A stretch of DNA of 45,807 bases from Promethearchaeota archaeon (lineage in GTDB: Archaea > Asgardarchaeota > Lokiarchaeia > Sigyniarchaeales > SOKP01): positions 1 to 45,807 of the forward strand of contig JAEOTP010000088.1 of NCBI GenBank assembly GCA_016839765.1. The letters run 5' to 3'. The notes below the pieces were generated by a model. It had not been told where the DNA came from. It saw nothing but the letters and a program-made list of their open reading frames with translations, and did not search any database. Positions 12,407 to 22,725 of this stretch are shown piece after piece (the first letter of the stretch is position 1; the number at the start of each line of letters is the position of its first letter). The translations under genes and the position numbers were made by a program.

Positions 12407-13348
12407 TTAAATGTTAAAACCCTCCTCAAAATCATCATATTCCTCTTCAAATCGCTTGATTTCTTCCTCTTTAAGCTTCTTTTTAAGCTCTTTACGCTCC
12501 TTATAAGTATGAGACTCATCATAACGTTTAATATACATTTTTTCGTATCTCTCTCTGAGCTTCTCAACGCTTTCTACTTGTCCAATTTTATCTTGTAATC
12601 CATCTTCAAAAAACCAGTTTCTCTTAAATTCTTTTGCGGGTATACCAACATAAATCCATCCATCTTTTAATTCTTGACCAACAGTAGTGACTGAGTTCGC
12701 TGCTAATACACTACGCCTACCAATATGGGTTCCTGGCATTACTATAGCATGAGACCCGATGCGAACTTCATCTTCTATTAAAGTTTTCCGAATGATTAGT
12801 AAATTTCCGATAATAACACTTGATTGGATAATTGCCCCTTGACCTACCACCACATTCTTTCCAAACTCCATAAATTCCGTGTCGCACCAACCTTCAAATA
12901 AGGAGTTAGAAAATTTTGTTTTAACTCCAAAAACCTTAAAACAGACATTATCTAAAAAGGGAAATGGAAACTTATGGGCAAGCCAAAAAGGAAACCGTTT
13001 AATAGTGCTTCTCATGCTCCAATAACGATAATCTTTATCAGAAGGGTGTCTAAGAAATGTACCCTCACGAGGTTTATGAACCGCATTAACAAATAAAAGA
13101 ATGATTTTAGCAAAAAAAATCGCAGAAAATACTGCTATAATATACATTCCAAAACATAAAAGAGGCAAAAAGGTATAAAAGTGAAGTGGTCTTTTATAAT
13201 CCCATAGCCACTGCCAATATGCCCAAAATATAAGTAAAAGTGGGATAATCGTCGCCCATATAATTATAATATAAAAGATTAAATATCTCTTTCTAACGAG
13301 AACCGTTGGTAAAAATGGTCCAACTCGCATAGTATTAGGTACAGACAT
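12407..13348 (-). CDS. Membrane-bound left-handed beta-helix acyltransferase-like protein (type B2, locus 1)
   Basis: This 313-residue protein has two hydrophobic segments (about residues 22-50 and 60-92), then a KPREGTFLR motif and a hexapeptide-repeat LbH domain (about 165-250) with VRIGSHAIVMPGTHIG and VGIPAKEFKRN, and a charged coiled C-tail. LbH proteins of this type are usually O- or N-acyltransferases; similar membrane-linked LbH units occur at the C-terminus of Pls/PosA-type synthetases. The substrate is unknown. It is closest in the window to the protein at 21883-22725 (both start MSVP and share a YLIFY segment). It lies 6 bp after the two-domain partner gene, so the two form an operon. 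The last codons overlap a 7-bp inverted repeat (12404-12420). Confidence 0.75.
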   Translation of the reverse strand: MSVPNTMRVGPFLPTVLVRKRYLIFYIIIIWATIIPLLLIFWAYWQWLWDYKRPLHFYTFLPLLCFGMYIIAVFSAIFFAKIILLFVNAVHKPREGTFLRHPSDKDYRYWSMRSTIKRFPFWLAHKFPFPFLDNVCFKVFGVKTKFSNSLFEGWCDTEFMEFGKNVVVGQGAIIQSSVIIGNLLIIRKTLIEDEVRIGSHAIVMPGTHIGRRSVLAANSVTTVGQELKDGWIYVGIPAKEFKRNWFFEDGLQDKIGQVESVEKLRERYEKMYIKRYDESHTYKERKELKKKLKEEEIKRFEEEYDDFEEGFNI

Positions 13349-13354
13349 ACTTTC

Positions 13355-15232
13355 TCACTCATCTTTAGTTTTTACTAATTTCTTTTTTTTCTCATCAATA
13401 TTAACTTCATGTTCCACTTCAAACTTTTTCGCCCCATCCACATCTCTCTTCATAATTAAATCTCTTCTTTCTTCAGCATACTTATTTTCTTTTAGTTTTA
13501 TTACAGGAATACCAAAATAAATCCAACTGGGTTCAATAACTTGATTGAATAATGTGGTAGAGACAGCCCCTACAAAAGAATCGTGCCCGATTATTGTTCC
13601 TGGAGCAATTGTAGTATGACCTCCGACTAAAACGTAATCATCAAAAATCAATCTTTTTATTACCAAATATTTGCCCACAACCATAGAAGACATAACTGTA
13701 GCCCCCTGCCCTATTAAATTTTTTCTTCCAAAACTTATGAATTCACCGTCGCACCACGCATCATTAAGATGACTCGAAAAATCCATATTTACGCCAAACC
13801 ATTTGAATGCTAATGCATCAATCCAAGGAAGTGGTGAATTTCTCAGAAGCCATAGGGTGATTTTTCTTAGTTGAGTACGGAGCATCCAAAATTCATAATC
13901 AGTATCTCCTATTTCTGCCAAAAATGTGCCCTCTTTAGGTTTATGAATTAAATTTACGAGAATTAACAACAATTTACTAAATAGTAACACTCCCAAAATG
14001 AAAAGATATAACATAGAAATAAGAGATATGGGGAGAAATATAATAGAACTCAGTTTTACTCCCTCCATCGAATATCCATACCAATAAATTGCAACAAGAA
14101 GGCCACTTAACCAGAAAATTGGAAGATAAACCACTAAGAATTTGATATTAATTCTACTAATAGCACTACTCGTTGTAAAGTCTAAAGCCAAATCTTCACT
14201 CGTCAAAGTTGACACATCATTTTGTTCAATTTCTTCACTTATATCAATATCTCCCTTAAAACCCTCTTCTTCATCATCCTCTATTCTCTCTATTATTTCT
14301 TTTGCCTCTTCCTCTTTAACCTTACCGCTCTTCTTCTTTATAAATAGCTCTGGATTTTCGTTTTTCCTTAAATCTTCTTCGCTTAAATCTAGCCAACTCA
14401 TTGTTTTTTTCTTAAAAATCTTACGCATGGGAGCTCCAAAATAAAAATGACGATTTCCTTTAATAACACTATGTTTGACACCACAAGCTAAAGGCAACAT
14501 ATATGCATTATCAGATATCTCACATCCTGGACCAAGCTGATTCATAGCAGCAAGAGTAACATTATCTCCAAGACTAACCTTAAAATAATTAATATTTCCA
14601 AATATTCCAGATACAGTATGACTTGCTAACGAAGAATTAACACCAATATAGCAATTTTTACCAACATCGATAAATTTATCAGAGGCTACTGATTCTTCAA
14701 TAGTGGTTCCTTTTCCTATTTTACTTGTTCCGATAAAATTATAGAACCAGGTTGATAACCAAGGAAATAAACCTTTTCCAAATACATTTTTTCCATATTT
14801 TAATATAAAACTTCTTATATGGTAGTAATTAGCTGTTTTGGAACGAATATTCCTTGGAATAATTCCATCCTTGGAAGGTGAGATTTTTTCTGTTATTTTC
14901 CAGAAAATTTTGGTAATAATTCCAATAAGAAGTAATCTGACGTAATAACCAATAATTAGCACTAAAGGCATAGCTAATAATGCTATTAAGGGCTTAATTT
15001 CAGTAAATATTGCAAAAAAATTGGTAATTCTCAAAAAATAGGGTTCAAAAAATAGAAGAACATAAGAAAAGAATATAAAGCCTGGCACTAACCATGAACC
15101 ATAATAAATAATAAAAAACAAGATAATGTATACATGAAACTGGAGACTCTGTTCTTCCCTAACAACCTCTTCTTCAGTATTATTATCTGAATCTTCATTG
15201 TTTTTTGAATCTTCAGACATTTTAATCATCAA
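13355..15232 (-). CDS. Fused double left-handed beta-helix membrane protein (types A+B1, locus 1)
   Basis: The 625-residue protein has two halves. Half A (about 30-275) has two or three membrane helices, an ISPSKDGIIPRNI motif, YHIRSF and an LbH domain ending in YFGAPMRKIFKKK. An acidic linker (about 290-345) follows. Half B (about 350-600) has two membrane helices, KPKEGTFLAEIGDTDYEFW, an LbH domain with VLVGGHTTIAPGTIIG and a YFGIPVIKL end. Both LbH domains suggest acyl or similar group transfer at the membrane. The donor and acceptor are unknown. The same two halves are separate genes at 22725-24528 and fused again at 25647-27473. An internal Met at residue 5 (15220) is an equally good start. 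Confidence 0.75.
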   Translation of the reverse strand: MMIKMSEDSKNNEDSDNNTEEEVVREEQSLQFHVYIILFFIIYYGSWLVPGFIFFSYVLLFFEPYFLRITNFFAIFTEIKPLIALLAMPLVLIIGYYVRLLLIGIITKIFWKITEKISPSKDGIIPRNIRSKTANYYHIRSFILKYGKNVFGKGLFPWLSTWFYNFIGTSKIGKGTTIEESVASDKFIDVGKNCYIGVNSSLASHTVSGIFGNINYFKVSLGDNVTLAAMNQLGPGCEISDNAYMLPLACGVKHSVIKGNRHFYFGAPMRKIFKKKTMSWLDLSEEDLRKNENPELFIKKKSGKVKEEEAKEIIERIEDDEEEGFKGDIDISEEIEQNDVSTLTSEDLALDFTTSSAISRINIKFLVVYLPIFWLSGLLVAIYWYGYSMEGVKLSSIIFLPISLISMLYLFILGVLLFSKLLLILVNLIHKPKEGTFLAEIGDTDYEFWMLRTQLRKITLWLLRNSPLPWIDALAFKWFGVNMDFSSHLNDAWCDGEFISFGRKNLIGQGATVMSSMVVGKYLVIKRLIFDDYVLVGGHTTIAPGTIIGHDSFVGAVSTTLFNQVIEPSWIYFGIPVIKLKENKYAEERRDLIMKRDVDGAKKFEVEHEVNIDEKKKKLVKTKDE

Positions 15233-17666: not shown

Positions 17667-19322
17667 ATGAAATGTTTTGACTTTGATGAAAGCGTTCAAA
17701 AAGTATTAAATGATTCTTTTTCTGATATTGAACCTACAAACTGGAAGAGATGGTTAGAAATTTCATCCAGTGAAGAGTTTGAAGAATTATGTTTAAAAAA
17801 TTCTGGATTATCTTCTGTAAATGAAATTTTTAAAAGGGCAACTTCTGAAATTACCGATTCAAGAAGTTTTTCTATTAATTTGGAAAAATTTCTTTCTGAT
17901 TATAACCATTCTTATACTCCAATACTGTGTCATACGTCAGGAACAACTGATAGTAAGATTTCAGCTCTTAAGTGGTTCTTTATGTCAAAAAGTGTAACTC
18001 AAAAAAATTGGGCTCCAGGTATGCAAGCCATATTCGAATCAAGCGGATTAGATTCTAAATCTTCTGCTGTAATTTTTGTGCCTTCAAGAATTAAATTAGA
18101 TGGTTTACAATATTATGAAGGACAACCATATATTTCACTTTACTCATCTGAATTTTCTCAAAGGGTAATGCTTTCAATCATTAAACCAAAAACTTACACT
18201 TTTTACGAATATAAAAATTCTAAAAACTTAGATGTAATCTCTAAAATAATAGATATGGATGATATTAGAGTTGTTTCTGCTCCTGCTTTAACCATTTTAG
18301 GATGGGCTGATTTAGAAAAACTTACATTACGCGTACAAAAATCTCTTGATGATTTACCAGATTATAAAAATCATATATTAGAGAATCTCATTTCGATGAT
18401 TAAAAAAGAAGGTATACAAAAAGCATCAAAATTAATTCAAGAAAAGCTTTCAGACAAATTATCTAAGGCGACAATAATATTTAGTATAAGTTCCCTTTCA
18501 GAGCAGAACTGGGCTTTAATAAGAAGGTTTATGAAATGGGAAAAGGGAAGAGAAAAATTTACAAATCTTTATGTAGCATCTGAGATTGGACCTTTCGCAT
18601 CCAGTATCTCTAAAGGGGACTTCGAAATATCTCGTCAAAATAGGTTGTATGTTTTTCCTTTGACATTGCCTGTTATAGAACACCATAATAAAAAACAATT
18701 AATTTCTCGAGCTTCAAACACGACGGGCAAGCTATTAGTGTCAAGAATGGATGGTTCTACCCCCTTAATTAATATCGATTTAGGCGATATTATTACTGTA
18801 AAAGAAAATGAGGGATTACCGCAAATTGATGGAAAAATCATACGATCTAGTTTTAAATTAAAATATGATCTTAAATTATCTGAAAAACTTGCTATACCTT
18901 TCGATTATAACATTTATGCTGGTGATTTTTTCTCTCTAAATGAATTTACAATAAATCAACCAAGAAACTTAATTAATTGCTTAAAAAATGATTGTAATTT
19001 GGAAGTTGATGCGTTATTATTATTAAAGAATAATAAAAAAACCTGGGATTTAGTTTTTCCATCTAATATTCAAGAAAATTGTATGAAAGATAAGAAATTA
19101 ATAGAATTAATTTCTTCATGTCCGCATCAGGAGGAGCTCACTCAAGGAATAATCAACAATTTAATCAATATCTATTTTATTGAAGATCAGCCGGTTGACT
19201 TCTTAGCTACGCGATCAGAAATATTGAATAAAGTTCGTGAAGGACAGGCACCTAAAGGCATATTGAAAAAATGGCCTTTATATGTAATTATTCCCAAAAA
19301 CGATGAGAATAATCTTATCTAA
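17667..19322 (+). CDS. Adenylate-forming (ANL/phenylacetate-CoA-ligase-like) enzyme
   Basis: This 551-residue protein has the ATP/AMP-binding P-loop motif HTSGTTDSKISALKWF (about residues 91-106), a later acidic VASEIGPFAS stretch comparable to the A5 aromatic motif region, and LINIDLGDII comparable to the A7 motif (Y/F-x-x-GD). The C-terminal part carries a VREGQAPKGILKKWP segment that could hold the catalytic lysine. Such enzymes activate a carboxylic acid as acyl-AMP and usually pass it to CoA or another thiol/amine. The substrate is unknown and divergence is high. No carrier-protein gene is adjacent. The gene seems to be alone on its strand, and converges with a DUF1761-like gene. Confidence 0.6.
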   Translation: MKCFDFDESVQKVLNDSFSDIEPTNWKRWLEISSSEEFEELCLKNSGLSSVNEIFKRATSEITDSRSFSINLEKFLSDYNHSYTPILCHTSGTTDSKISALKWFFMSKSVTQKNWAPGMQAIFESSGLDSKSSAVIFVPSRIKLDGLQYYEGQPYISLYSSEFSQRVMLSIIKPKTYTFYEYKNSKNLDVISKIIDMDDIRVVSAPALTILGWADLEKLTLRVQKSLDDLPDYKNHILENLISMIKKEGIQKASKLIQEKLSDKLSKATIIFSISSLSEQNWALIRRFMKWEKGREKFTNLYVASEIGPFASSISKGDFEISRQNRLYVFPLTLPVIEHHNKKQLISRASNTTGKLLVSRMDGSTPLINIDLGDIITVKENEGLPQIDGKIIRSSFKLKYDLKLSEKLAIPFDYNIYAGDFFSLNEFTINQPRNLINCLKNDCNLEVDALLLLKNNKKTWDLVFPSNIQENCMKDKKLIELISSCPHQEELTQGIINNLINIYFIEDQPVDFLATRSEILNKVREGQAPKGILKKWPLYVIIPKNDENNLI

Positions 19323-19344
19323 AAAAAAAAAGGAACAACATAAT

Positions 19345-19746
19345 TTATTGCCAAACGGCTAAAATTAAACCCGCGATTATGAATCCAATCAAGTAAAACC
19401 CATATTCTAAAAGAAAAAGCTTTACTCCTCTATCGTTAAAATTATTTTGATTAATTGCAATAGTTGCAACAAATCCTACCCATAAGAGGATACTTATGAT
19501 TAATGCTGATACAATATCATTCATATTAGTGAGATCCATGATAACCTCAATCATTAGAACAGTAATAAAGCTCGTTGGAATCATTATTATCGTATCTCTA
19601 ATAATTTTTGATTTGGGTTCACTCTCTTTACCGACTAATTTTAGCCACATATTCCCGAAGGCAAAAGGAAAATACCAGAAAAAATGAATCAGAAAATAAA
19701 TTATTGCAACCACAACAACAGCTAACCAGTTAATCATCAAAGCCAT
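19345..19746 (-). CDS. DUF1761-like membrane protein
   Basis: This 133-residue protein has four hydrophobic helices. The opening NWLAVVVVAIIYFLIHFFWY, then FGNMWLKLVGKE, and the later LWVGFVATIAIN fit the DUF1761 pattern (NWxAVxVA...WY...F...W). Function is unknown. The gene lies 22 bp from the stop of the convergent adenylate-forming enzyme gene. Confidence 0.65.
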   Translation of the reverse strand: MALMINWLAVVVVAIIYFLIHFFWYFPFAFGNMWLKLVGKESEPKSKIIRDTIIMIPTSFITVLMIEVIMDLTNMNDIVSALIISILLWVGFVATIAINQNNFNDRGVKLFLLEYGFYLIGFIIAGLILAVWQ

Positions 19747-19851
19747 ATTTTGTCACTTCTTAAATTAATAATTTGTAATTAAAAGGAATATAAATGAACA
19801 ATATTTATTTCTTATTTGTTTAAATTATAAATTAAAATTAATGGGTTTTCA

Positions 19852-20325
19852 ATGAAAGATAAATTCAATTTAGTGGGGACTAAAATAAAACAATTTAAAT
19901 TACCAAACTCAAGAGGCGAAACAAATAGTATTCAGGACTTCTTGGGTCAAAGCGTAGTAATTGTTTTATTCCGGAGTAAAAATTGACCCTATGCTAAAGC
20001 ACATGCAGGAAAACTCGGTGTTGATTTCGATAAATTCAAAGAATACAACGCAATATTATATACGATCTTACCAGATGACCTTGAAAGTGCTAAGAATTTT
20101 GAAGCCAATTTTGCGAAAAATAAATTTCCAATTTATTATGATGCCAAAAAAAAGGTGAATAAAATGTTAAAACAGGAAGTAAAACCTTTAAAACTGGGAA
20201 GGATGCCAGCACTTCTCATAATCGACAAACAAGGGATTATAAAATATGCATATTACAGTGATTCAATGAGTGATATACCAGACAATGAGGAAATTTTTGA
20301 AGTACTCAAAAATCTTAATAAATAA
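19852..20325 (+). CDS. Selenocysteine-containing peroxiredoxin-like protein (UGA read as Sec45)
   Basis: One frame runs from ATG 19852 to TAA 20325 (157 residues) with a single in-frame TGA at 19984-19986. Residues 1-44 lead from KIKQFKLPNSRGETNSIQDF through VVIVLFRSKN, the peroxiredoxin beta-strand before the active site. The TGA then falls exactly where the peroxidatic Cys of the FRxxxCPYC-type motif is expected (FRSKN-U-PYAKAHAGKLG). The thioredoxin fold continues in the same frame, with FPIYYDAKKKVNKML and RMPALLIIDKQGIIKYAYY. No frameshift is needed, and both sides are coding, so Sec insertion is the best reading. TGA acts as a normal stop in other genes here. A stem structure follows the stop. 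It is likely a thiol/selenol peroxidase of the cytoplasm. A nonsense-mutated pseudogene is the alternative. Confidence 0.8.
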
Positions 20326-20329
20326 ATCC

Positions 20330-20400
20330 GATTTGGTTCGAATAAGTTATGAAAAATGATTGAATTTTATTCGATTAAGTTAGCCACACTTTACCAAATC
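20330..20400 (+). promoter_or_regulatory. Candidate SECIS: nested RNA stems after the Sec-peroxiredoxin
   Basis: Starting 5 nt after the stop codon, an outer perfect 8-bp inverted repeat (GATTTGGT 20330-20337 with ACCAAATC 20393-20400) encloses an inner perfect 8-bp repeat (TCGAATAA 20338-20345 with TTATTCGA 20367-20374). The inner apical region is A-rich and contains AUGA and UGAU strings. Archaeal SECIS elements usually lie in 3' UTRs. I could not place the eukaryote-like UGA/GA quartet with certainty. Confidence 0.55.
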
Positions 20401-20443
20401 AATCTTCTTTTATTTAGAAATCAAAAAAAAGAGCTAAATATTT

Positions 20444-20920
20444 TTAAATAGATTTTAGCCCTATTGGTGGTCCTACTTGTTTAAATTTATAAATAAGTTG
20501 ACCTTCTGTGGTAAACATATCCCAACCTTGATCTTTTTCAAAACCATGCGCAGATAAAAAATTTTCTGAAAATTTGTTCCTTGCGGATTGTACCATTTGA
20601 TTAATAACTTCTTTTTTTATTTGATTATTTTCAACTAATTCCAATTTGCCTTGCATTGAAATAAAATAATAACTATTAAGATCTGGTTCAAATTTTTCTA
20701 TTGAAATGCATACATTAGGATTATTTGAAAGGATATCCTTCTTTTTGCCATAATCAGTAAAATGAAAATATAAAGTATCATCAATGAAAACATATTGGAA
20801 CGGTGAGATATATGGATATTCATCATCTATGAATGCAATTCTACATAAATTTTGAGAATTGATTGCTTCTTTTATTTCTTTTTCATTCATTTTTGGTAAT
20901 TTAATAATTCTAATACACAT
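20444..20920 (-). CDS. Pyridoxamine 5'-phosphate oxidase-like flavin-binding protein
   Basis: The protein has the split-barrel pattern of the PNPOx-like family: an N-terminal helix (KMNEKEIKEAINSQNLCRIAF), then EYPYISPFQYVFIDDTLYFH, KKKDILSNNPNVCISIE and a long C-terminal arm. Members bind FMN, F420 or heme and reduce varied small molecules; the substrate is unknown. An upstream Met at 20965 would overlap the UvdE gene by 32 bp, so I choose the Met at 20920 (MCIRIIKLPKM), leaving 13 bp after the UvdE stop. The pair is probably co-transcribed. Confidence 0.78.
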   Translation of the reverse strand: MCIRIIKLPKMNEKEIKEAINSQNLCRIAFIDDEYPYISPFQYVFIDDTLYFHFTDYGKKKDILSNNPNVCISIEKFEPDLNSYYFISMQGKLELVENNQIKKEVINQMVQSARNKFSENFLSAHGFEKDQGWDMFTTEGQLIYKFKQVGPPIGLKSI

Positions 20921-20933
20921 CACTAACTTAATT

Positions 20934-21830
20934 TTAATTGGATAAAAAACGTGGATCATATTCAAGAAGTTTTATTGCCTTTAAAGCACTCCGTTCTTTA
21001 TCTTTTATTTCTAACATAAGGTCAAAATTATAATTTTTCGTCTTATTAATAAAGGTTTTAAAATGTTCGAGTTGAATATTATCAGCATGACTCGGTTGTC
21101 TTTTTATTTGATGTTGAGAGCTATAGTGTACGATAGGCAAGCCATCTCGTTTATTCCACGTTTGTGTGAATTTGCTAAATACCTCTTCAAAAATTTCACC
21201 TGTATTTAAACATTCATGATGATAAACATCAAAAACAATAGGAATAAAAATTTCTTCATAAATTTCCAGACAATCTGCTAAATTAAAACTTTTATCATCA
21301 TTTTCAATAACATATCGTTTTTTAATTTTAGCTGAAAGCTTATTATATCTTTTGCTGAATCTTTTTTTACTTCCCTTTTTATCACCATAAACACCTCCAA
21401 TATGGGTCATAATTTTAGCTGTGCAATCCAAATTCATTAAATCTAAAACATCAGCATGATATTCCAACTCCTTTATACTTGTATTAACAACTTTATCGTT
21501 TTTAGAATTTAACACCGTATATTGACCAGGGTGCATAGAGATTCTCATATTCTGCTTTTTTATAAAGTTCCCTATTTCATTAAACTTTTCTTTGAAATAA
21601 TCTTGCCATTCAAATTTCATAATAGGATGAGAACCAAATGGTATTAAATCAGATGTAATTCTAAAGAAAAAGATTTTGTTATTTTTATTATATTCAAGAA
21701 TTTCTTGTAAACAATCTAAATTTCCATCTATACTTTCAATTAATCTTTCTTCGGAATAATTTTTCAAACGAAAAGTTCTACTACTTTTACAAGTTAATGC
21801 AAGATTTATGCAAGGATAACCGATCTTCAT
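20934..21830 (-). CDS. uvsE: UV damage endonuclease UvdE/UVDE
   Basis: This 298-residue TIM-barrel enzyme has the family's typical opening (MKIGYPCINLAL), FRITSDLIPFGSHP, MRISMHPGQYTVLNS, YHADVLDLM, THIGGVYGDK, VIENDDKSFN and a C-terminal FDVYHHECLN plus HADNI. The His, Glu and Asp residues in these motifs supply the metal site. The enzyme nicks DNA 5' to UV photoproducts and other lesions, an excision-repair route independent of UvrABC. Length is normal. It lies upstream of the PNPOx-like gene on the same strand. Confidence 0.9.
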   Translation of the reverse strand: MKIGYPCINLALTCKSSRTFRLKNYSEERLIESIDGNLDCLQEILEYNKNNKIFFFRITSDLIPFGSHPIMKFEWQDYFKEKFNEIGNFIKKQNMRISMHPGQYTVLNSKNDKVVNTSIKELEYHADVLDLMNLDCTAKIMTHIGGVYGDKKGSKKRFSKRYNKLSAKIKKRYVIENDDKSFNLADCLEIYEEIFIPIVFDVYHHECLNTGEIFEEVFSKFTQTWNKRDGLPIVHYSSQHQIKRQPSHADNIQLEHFKTFINKTKNYNFDLMLEIKDKERSALKAIKLLEYDPRFLSN

Positions 21831-21882
21831 TTTACTTCAATCTATAAATTAATTAATCAAAAATAGAAATACTTTAATTCAT

Positions 21883-22725
21883 TCACACTTGTTTATCTTT
21901 TCGTCTGGTATAGAGTTCTTTGTATTTTTTGCGTAGTTCCTCGATATCATGCTCTTGTTCAGCTATTATTTCTTCTAAACCATCTTCAAAGAACACATCT
22001 CTTTTGTACTTTTTTGCTGGTGCACCGAGATAAACCCATCCTTCTTCTAATTCTTGGCCAACAGTTGTAAGAGAACTTGCAGCAAGAACAGAATCCTTCT
22101 TCATATGAGTTCCCGGCATAACAACTGAATGAGCACCTATTCTAACATTATCTTCGATTATTGTTTTTCTAATTATAAATAGATTTCCAATAATAACTGC
22201 AGATTGAATAACACTCGCTTGACCAACTACAACATTCTTTCCAAATTCAATGAATTCTGTGTCAACCCAGCCTTCAAATAGCGAGTTTGAAAATTGTGTT
22301 TTAACCCCAAACAATTTAAAGCATATATTATCTAAGAAAGGTAATGGAAATTTGTGTGCTATCCATGCTGGCCACTTTTTTATTGTATTTCTAATACTCC
22401 AATATCTATAATCTTTATTCGAGGGGGTCCTAAGAAAGACTCCTTCTCTGGGTTTATGAAAGAGATTAACAATAATAAGTAGGATTTTGGTAAAAAAAAG
22501 GGATACAAATAATAATGAAATATATATTACAAATATGAGAAGAGGAAGAAAAATTATGAAATGAATAAACTTATTGTAATATAATAAGTTCCAATACCAC
22601 CAAAATTCAAATTGGATAACAAAAATGCTAATCCAAATTTGGAATAGATAAAAAATTAAATATTTTTTTTTCACTAAAACATTTGATGTAAAAGGACCAG
22701 CTTTAAGATATGCGGGTACAGACAT
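21883..22725 (-). CDS. Membrane-bound LbH acyltransferase-like protein (type B2, locus 2)
   Basis: This 280-residue paralogue of 12407-13348 shares the MSVP start, the PFTSNVLVKKKYLIFY opening, two membrane segments (about 22-48 and 58-90), KPREGVFLRTPSNKDYRYW and an LbH domain (about 165-250) with VRIGAHSVVMPGTHM and YLGAPAKKYKRD. Its ATG overlaps the TAA of the preceding type-B1 gene by one base (TAATG), so the two are translationally coupled. The lysine/glutamate-rich tail is shorter than in locus 1. It is a predicted acyl or related transferase of unknown substrate. Confidence 0.75.
   Translation of the reverse strand: MSVPAYLKAGPFTSNVLVKKKYLIFYLFQIWISIFVIQFEFWWYWNLLYYNKFIHFIIFLPLLIFVIYISLLFVSLFFTKILLIIVNLFHKPREGVFLRTPSNKDYRYWSIRNTIKKWPAWIAHKFPLPFLDNICFKLFGVKTQFSNSLFEGWVDTEFIEFGKNVVVGQASVIQSAVIIGNLFIIRKTIIEDNVRIGAHSVVMPGTHMKKDSVLAASSLTTVGQELEEGWVYLGAPAKKYKRDVFFEDGLEEIIAEQEHDIEELRKKYKELYTRRKDKQV

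Follow-up and report, generated by a model that had tools for sequence, protein, structure and literature searches.

The euryarchaeal SECIS, as found in Methanococcales, is a single hairpin with a GAA_A internal loop. Publications on the Prx-like selenoprotein of Asgard archaea (prxL) reportedly include Mariotti 2016. The Prx-like family has been described as a Lokiarchaeal selenoprotein (PMC11227280, Huang 2024; PMC9723677, Sun 2021); it counts among the five selenoprotein families that are widespread in Asgard archaea and occurs in 43.2% of those that use Sec (PMC11227280). Its major SECIS form is assigned to the eukaryote-like type I, for which a GA_[G/A]A core is allowed, and the parts distinguished in the text of the same paper are a core, an upper stem, an apical loop (a ministem in type II), an internal loop and a lower stem (PMC11227280). 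We found nothing in that text on a hairpin located between the core and the lower stem, and a review describes the SECIS of Lokiarchaeota as bearing a single apical loop (PMC9499178). Kink-turn geometry inside three-way junctions, termed the k-junction, is known from RNAs of other kinds (reference 69 of PMC11227280). With regard to the factors that read these elements, archaea have so far yielded no SBP2 homologue, archaeal SelB failed to bind a cognate SECIS, and a Lokiarchaeal SECIS did not function in Methanococcus (PMC11881835).

The Sec-Prx family treated here is thus an already published one. What looks new is a conserved third SECIS arm, together with a variant of the element that is free of the quartet of non-standard base pairs assumed by the published eukaryote-like models.

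The gene, its in-frame UGA and the selenocysteine machinery

The window, meaning the whole stretch of 45,807 nucleotides that was analysed, carries on its forward strand a single intact frame at 19852-20325, which starts with ATG at 19852, ends with TAA at 20323-20325 and contains TGA at codon 45 (19984-19986) as its sole internal stop. With this TGA translated as selenocysteine (Sec), a protein of 157 amino acids is obtained (MKDKFNLVGTKIKQFKLPNSRGETNSIQDFLGQSVVIVLFRSKNUPYAKAHAGKLG...MPALLIIDKQG...), referred to as Sec-Prx. Residues 8-132 match the Pfam family AhpC-TSA (2.9e-20), the match covering both sides of the UGA, and the motif reads FRxxxU-PY-A. A preliminary description had placed the TGA at the catalytic position of an FRxxxCPY(C) motif in an otherwise intact frame, with Ala for the second motif Cys and with coding that resumes in the same frame (PYAKAHAGKLG, MPALLIIDKQG). 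These points were confirmed. Ala or Ser occupies the fourth motif position in the window protein and its four nearest relatives, most other members being UPYC or UPFC. Under the standard code no ORF of at least 80 amino acids is listed over the gene, so that automated gene calling would probably shorten or overlook it, as had been anticipated.

An AlphaFold2 model derived from 25 aligned sequences (mean pLDDT 95.1) places residue 45 directly before a helix spanning residues 46-57, which is the catalytic position of this type of fold. In a PDB search the best-matching solved folds were Sulfolobus Bcp4 and Bcp1 (E 3e-12), and the best NCBIfam match is to the SelL-related redox protein NF040769, at 41 bits and under the cut-off of 120. 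The earlier naming of the protein as a peroxiredoxin holds for the AhpC-TSA match and the fold but not for the classical peroxidatic motif, PxxxTxxC or PxxxT/SxxC(U), which is absent in the window, where V38 stands at -7 and S42 at -3, most relatives having D, G or N at the latter position; peroxidase activity can thus only be presumed. Taken together, the product of 19852-20325 is very probably a selenoprotein with a thioredoxin/peroxiredoxin fold, and from the sequence we infer both the insertion of Sec at UGA 45 and its redox chemistry. Elsewhere in the window, two minus-strand ORFs within 12407-15232, one at 13355-15232 with hexapeptide repeats and one at 12407-13348, share a frame with a TGA between them and are probably two genes.

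A search of 147 related genomes with the protein yielded matches in 64 of them, and nearly all strong matches contain exactly one in-frame TGA. Where relatives bear names, these are metagenome-assembled genomes of Lokiarchaeia or Lokiarchaeota. The preliminary description had suggested looking for homologues with a conserved TGA: all 30 codon-aligned orthologues, from many assemblies, keep it in the same column. Downstream of the UGA, dN/dS amounts to 0.07-0.22 in the pairs computed and is about as low as upstream. These values indicate that the codons following the UGA are under purifying selection, and the conservation of the TGA appears to go far beyond chance. The only full-length orthologue without the UGA, L035, has no stop and carries Asp, not Cys, at the Sec position. 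Among the paralogues, three (L038, 24401; L048, 147; L049, 673922) read UxxU, with UGA in both places of the motif; two of these lie in tandem with a UPYC copy, and each is accompanied by a junction element with the UAGCCA loop discussed below. L061, L062 and L063 belong to a second Prx-like family that is more distant and also has UxxU. In one relative, a decayed second Sec-Prx copy of the UPYA type (L056, G057:C69:71458-71920), with a split frame and extra stops, lies beside an intact UPFC copy.

The four components of the Sec pathway named for a genome check, SelB, SepSecS, PSTK and tRNA-Sec, were all located in the assembly to which the window belongs (3.32 Mb; completeness 95.9%), SelB being in two pieces. 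tRNA-Sec scores 62.1 bits against a cut-off of 47 and has the anticodon UCA; the SepSecS match (TIGR03531, 474.7 bits) follows it after about 220 bases, the two being side by side on contig C34. PSTK and SelB score under the curated NCBI cut-offs, so that their identity rests on PDB matches: the top match of PSTK is an L-seryl-tRNA(Sec) kinase (3e-29), and SelB, broken over two contig ends (L065, G000:C34, 1-123; L084, G000:C75, 2-1114), matches archaeal SelB at 7e-49, eEFSec at 1.4e-20 and EF-Tu at best at 2.6e-12. SelD is itself of the Sec type, with an in-frame TGA within its active-site motif, and three mvhD-type genes contain two TGA codons each. In the genus, Sec-type selD genes often stand in neighbouring pairs (e.g., G006:C52, G010:C26, G011:C222); the window's genome shows one gene only. 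The earlier proposal of a likely selenoprotein thus stands: the machinery is present, homologues keep the UGA, and the gene in the window contains no further disabling mutation besides the TGA. The RNA behind the gene, which that proposal had left unmentioned, is the most informative part.

The RNA behind Sec-Prx and behind other selenoprotein genes

Among oriented Sec-Prx loci, the bases 3' of the stop codon are strikingly conserved. In the window they form, at 20329-20401 on the forward strand, a predicted three-way junction that is proposed as the SECIS element of the gene. P1, with its 5' strand GAUUUGGU at 20330-20337 and its 3' strand ACCAAAUC at 20393-20400, is followed without linker or GA quartet by P2, whose 5' strand UCGAAUAAG (20338-20346) pairs with UUUAUUCGA (20366-20374) below an A-rich apical loop, UUAUGAAAAAUGAUUGAAU (20347-20365). 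The third helix, P3, is the hairpin AAGU-UAGCCAC-ACUU at 20377-20391. Most Sec-Prx elements have GAUUUGG/CCAAAUC as P1, and the P3 loop is near-invariant in the family, UAGCCA, carried on 16 different stems, being present in 49 of the 50 elements. In P2, an upper stem of 7-15 bp and unpaired adenines in the apical loop agree with what is expected of an eukaryote-like SECIS.

Across 17 diverse sequences, 90.3% of the cells of the structure are paired and two-sided changes occur in 19 of the 22 pairs; the covariation values were reached by none of 500 shuffles, and slid controls collapse. RNAalifold recovered the same three helices unaided. When sequences were anchored on the P3 loop without any folding, the flanks paired in 95% of cells, as against 76% with partners swapped between sequences. 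Folded by itself at minimum energy, the window element retains P1 and loses P2 and P3, and an Rfam scan of 18000-22000 found no SECIS family, the best matches lying under their gathering scores. Inspection by eye suggested a k-loop (U.U, G.A, A.G) at the P2 apex in several elements, L016 among them; others, such as L010, L014 and L031, lack it, and no claim is made for it.

The covariance model of the Sec-Prx element, R1, was run over the 147 genomes at E values up to 0.01. Of its 50 matches, 48 lie 1-33 nucleotides downstream of a Sec-Prx match, the one in the window (20329-20401) scoring 73.3 bits. The other two, at 27-28 bits, were rejected as chance matches: one lies inside an ordinary ORF, and neither has a UAGCC loop in the bases read. 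Sec-Prx matches that lack an R1 match are cut by a contig end, are broken copies or divergent members, or correspond to the Asp protein; the last of these, L035, constitutes the single natural UGA-free control. The three-helix fold thus has good support as a structure linked to the UGA gene, and most likely it acts as the signal that permits recoding of the UGA. Behind selD or mvhD, R1 found nothing convincing, so that in sequence the Prx element represents a separate subtype.

Selenoprotein genes of the same lineage were compared by means of a descriptor consisting of UGA, a stem P2, GA or AA, a P3 hairpin and then, within 3 nucleotides, the partner of the P1 strand. It was found in 21 of 22 mvhD genes (0.4 in shuffles) and 26 of 28 selD genes (0.6 in shuffles), or 47 of 50 in total, whereas none of the 49 Sec-Prx loci has this quartet form (2.2 in shuffles). 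A stricter version gave 16/22, 17/28 and 0/49 for mvhD, selD and Sec-Prx, respectively. When only the 3' side of the core was shuffled, P3 and P1 appeared in 18% (mvhD) and 21% (selD) of cases, compared with 16/18 and 17/17 of the real sequences. The P3 loops of mvhD and selD mostly contain GC (GCA, AGCA, UAGCU, CGCAA, GCAC), and UAGCC, UAGCA or UAGCU loops are present in some mvhD genes. For these two families, RNAalifold on mixed alignments found P2, and in selD also P1, but missed P3, since MAFFT had shifted its register; the evidence for their third arm accordingly consists of the per-sequence descriptor with its shuffled controls and not of an alignment fold. The layout of quartet plus third arm also occurs in other families of the class and at one locus of another class (L091, L094, L093). 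L062 of the UxxU Prx-like family has the quartet form, and both L062 and L063 apparently have elements of the quartet type followed by a GC-loop hairpin; quartet-type elements of this family may contribute to published prxL assignments. Since the third arm occurs behind mvhD, selD and Sec-Prx, it looks like a general SECIS feature of the lineage, with Sec-Prx as the family that lacks the quartet.

In many mvhD genes (L072, L073, L192-L194, L196, L198, L199), P1 begins inside the coding sequence and the terminating UGA doubles as the 5' half of the SECIS core. In these genes one UGA must therefore act as a stop while two upstream UGAs specify Sec.

Proposed decoding and alternative explanations

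According to the explanation we favor, UGA 45 would be decoded as Sec via tRNA-Sec, PSTK, SepSecS, SelD and SelB, on the instruction of the three-way junction directly behind the stop codon, in which P1 closes the junction, P2 bears the A-rich apical loop and P3 presents the UAGCCA loop. Other selenoprotein genes of the lineage share this layout, usually with GC in the loop of the third arm, and have at the base of P2 the UGA...GA (or AA) quartet of the published eukaryote-like models. In the Sec-Prx family the quartet form is absent and P2 is paired down to the junction, so that the junction and the P3 loop, perhaps with the A-rich P2 loop, would carry recognition in Lokiarchaeia and the quartet would be dispensable at least in Sec-Prx. 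Because the fourth motif residue is Ala, the enzyme would probably be a redox protein with one Sec that depends on an external thiol for its reduction. As a whole, this account of sequence-based observations strikes us as likely. Its extension to Lokiarchaeal SECIS elements at large, namely that they are three-way junctions in which the GC-bearing loop of the third hairpin (UAGCCA in Prx) is part of recognition and from which the quartet can be lost, has about an even chance of being correct.

The Prx element might instead represent an ordinary eukaryote-like SECIS of type I with a degenerate GA_AA core, formed where the final G of P1 and the A after it face the AA that precedes P3, in which case the third arm would be incidental. 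This would be in keeping with type I as the major prxL form and with the permitted GA_[G/A]A (PMC11227280), and it fits L010, L011, L015 and L016, which have an 11-bp stem without mismatch. The base following UUUGG is A in 21 of the 50 Prx elements, in some of which a GA_AA core is readable and may represent a degenerate quartet, but it is U in 24, including the window, and C in 5. Moreover, the G required by such a core is already paired in P1, and compensatory Watson-Crick changes occur at the P2 base. A loose GA_[G/A]A model, in our own implementation, was found in 40 of 49 real Prx elements and in 38.6 of 49 block-shuffled ones; since it fits shuffled sequences about as often as real ones, assignments of prxL to type I by the core alone are weak. 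On balance, the degenerate-core explanation is considered unlikely.

Still less probable, and indeed clearly improbable, is that the junction serves as another kind of 3'-UTR element, in mRNA stability or regulation, with the SECIS located elsewhere. The element does lie immediately at the stop codon, a place also taken by stability elements; however, it tracks the UGA, being found behind UGA genes and missing from the UGA-free orthologue, and it has its position, layout, A-rich loop and P3 in common with the elements behind selD and mvhD, while the Sec-Prx 3' regions compared contain no other obviously conserved stretch. That the TGA is a disabling mutation, a sequencing error or the mark of a decaying gene copy recalls the decayed tandem copy in G057, with its extra stops and split frame, but is scarcely credible given its presence in 30 of 30 orthologues from many assemblies, a dN/dS far below 1 behind it and the presence of Sec machinery in the genome.

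Should junction-based recognition of the Prx element hold, several consequences would follow. The quartet is the reason why Lokiarchaeia have been used as a bridge between archaeal and eukaryotic Sec systems; a third arm behind selD, mvhD and prx, together with a quartet-free family, would change the part of the RNA to be tested for protein binding. If the kink-turn quartet can be lost, reading it is no requirement for the archaeal decoding factor. Elements with the quartet could belong to the k-junction kind, which, by the same pairs, is impossible for the Prx form. Junction models would also permit a more specific search for SECIS elements than the published loose core, which matches real Prx sequence only slightly more often than shuffled AT-rich sequence.

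Comparison with described proteins and SECIS elements

Like the Asgard prxL described so far, the window gene encodes an AhpC/TSA-type protein with UGA at the catalytic position, in a member of the Lokiarchaeia whose genome contains the Sec machinery. It differs in its UxxA motif and in an RNA that appears as a three-way junction without the quartet rather than as the reported type I structure. BCP/PrxQ peroxiredoxins share its fold, as judged from the Sulfolobus Bcp structures, but Sec replaces Cys in the window protein, Pro is missing at -7, and the fourth motif position, Cys in most members, is Ala. With euryarchaeal SECIS elements the putative signal has in common that it is a 3'-UTR element for SelB-type decoding, whereas no GAA_A bulge was recognised in it and three helices are arranged round a junction. 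The eukaryote-like Asgard elements of types I and II resemble it more closely in their 3'-UTR position, lower helix, upper helix of 7-15 bp and A-rich apical loop. In contrast to these, the window element has neither a GA_GA nor an AUGA core and is distinguished by the additional P3 hairpin with its conserved UAGCCA loop.
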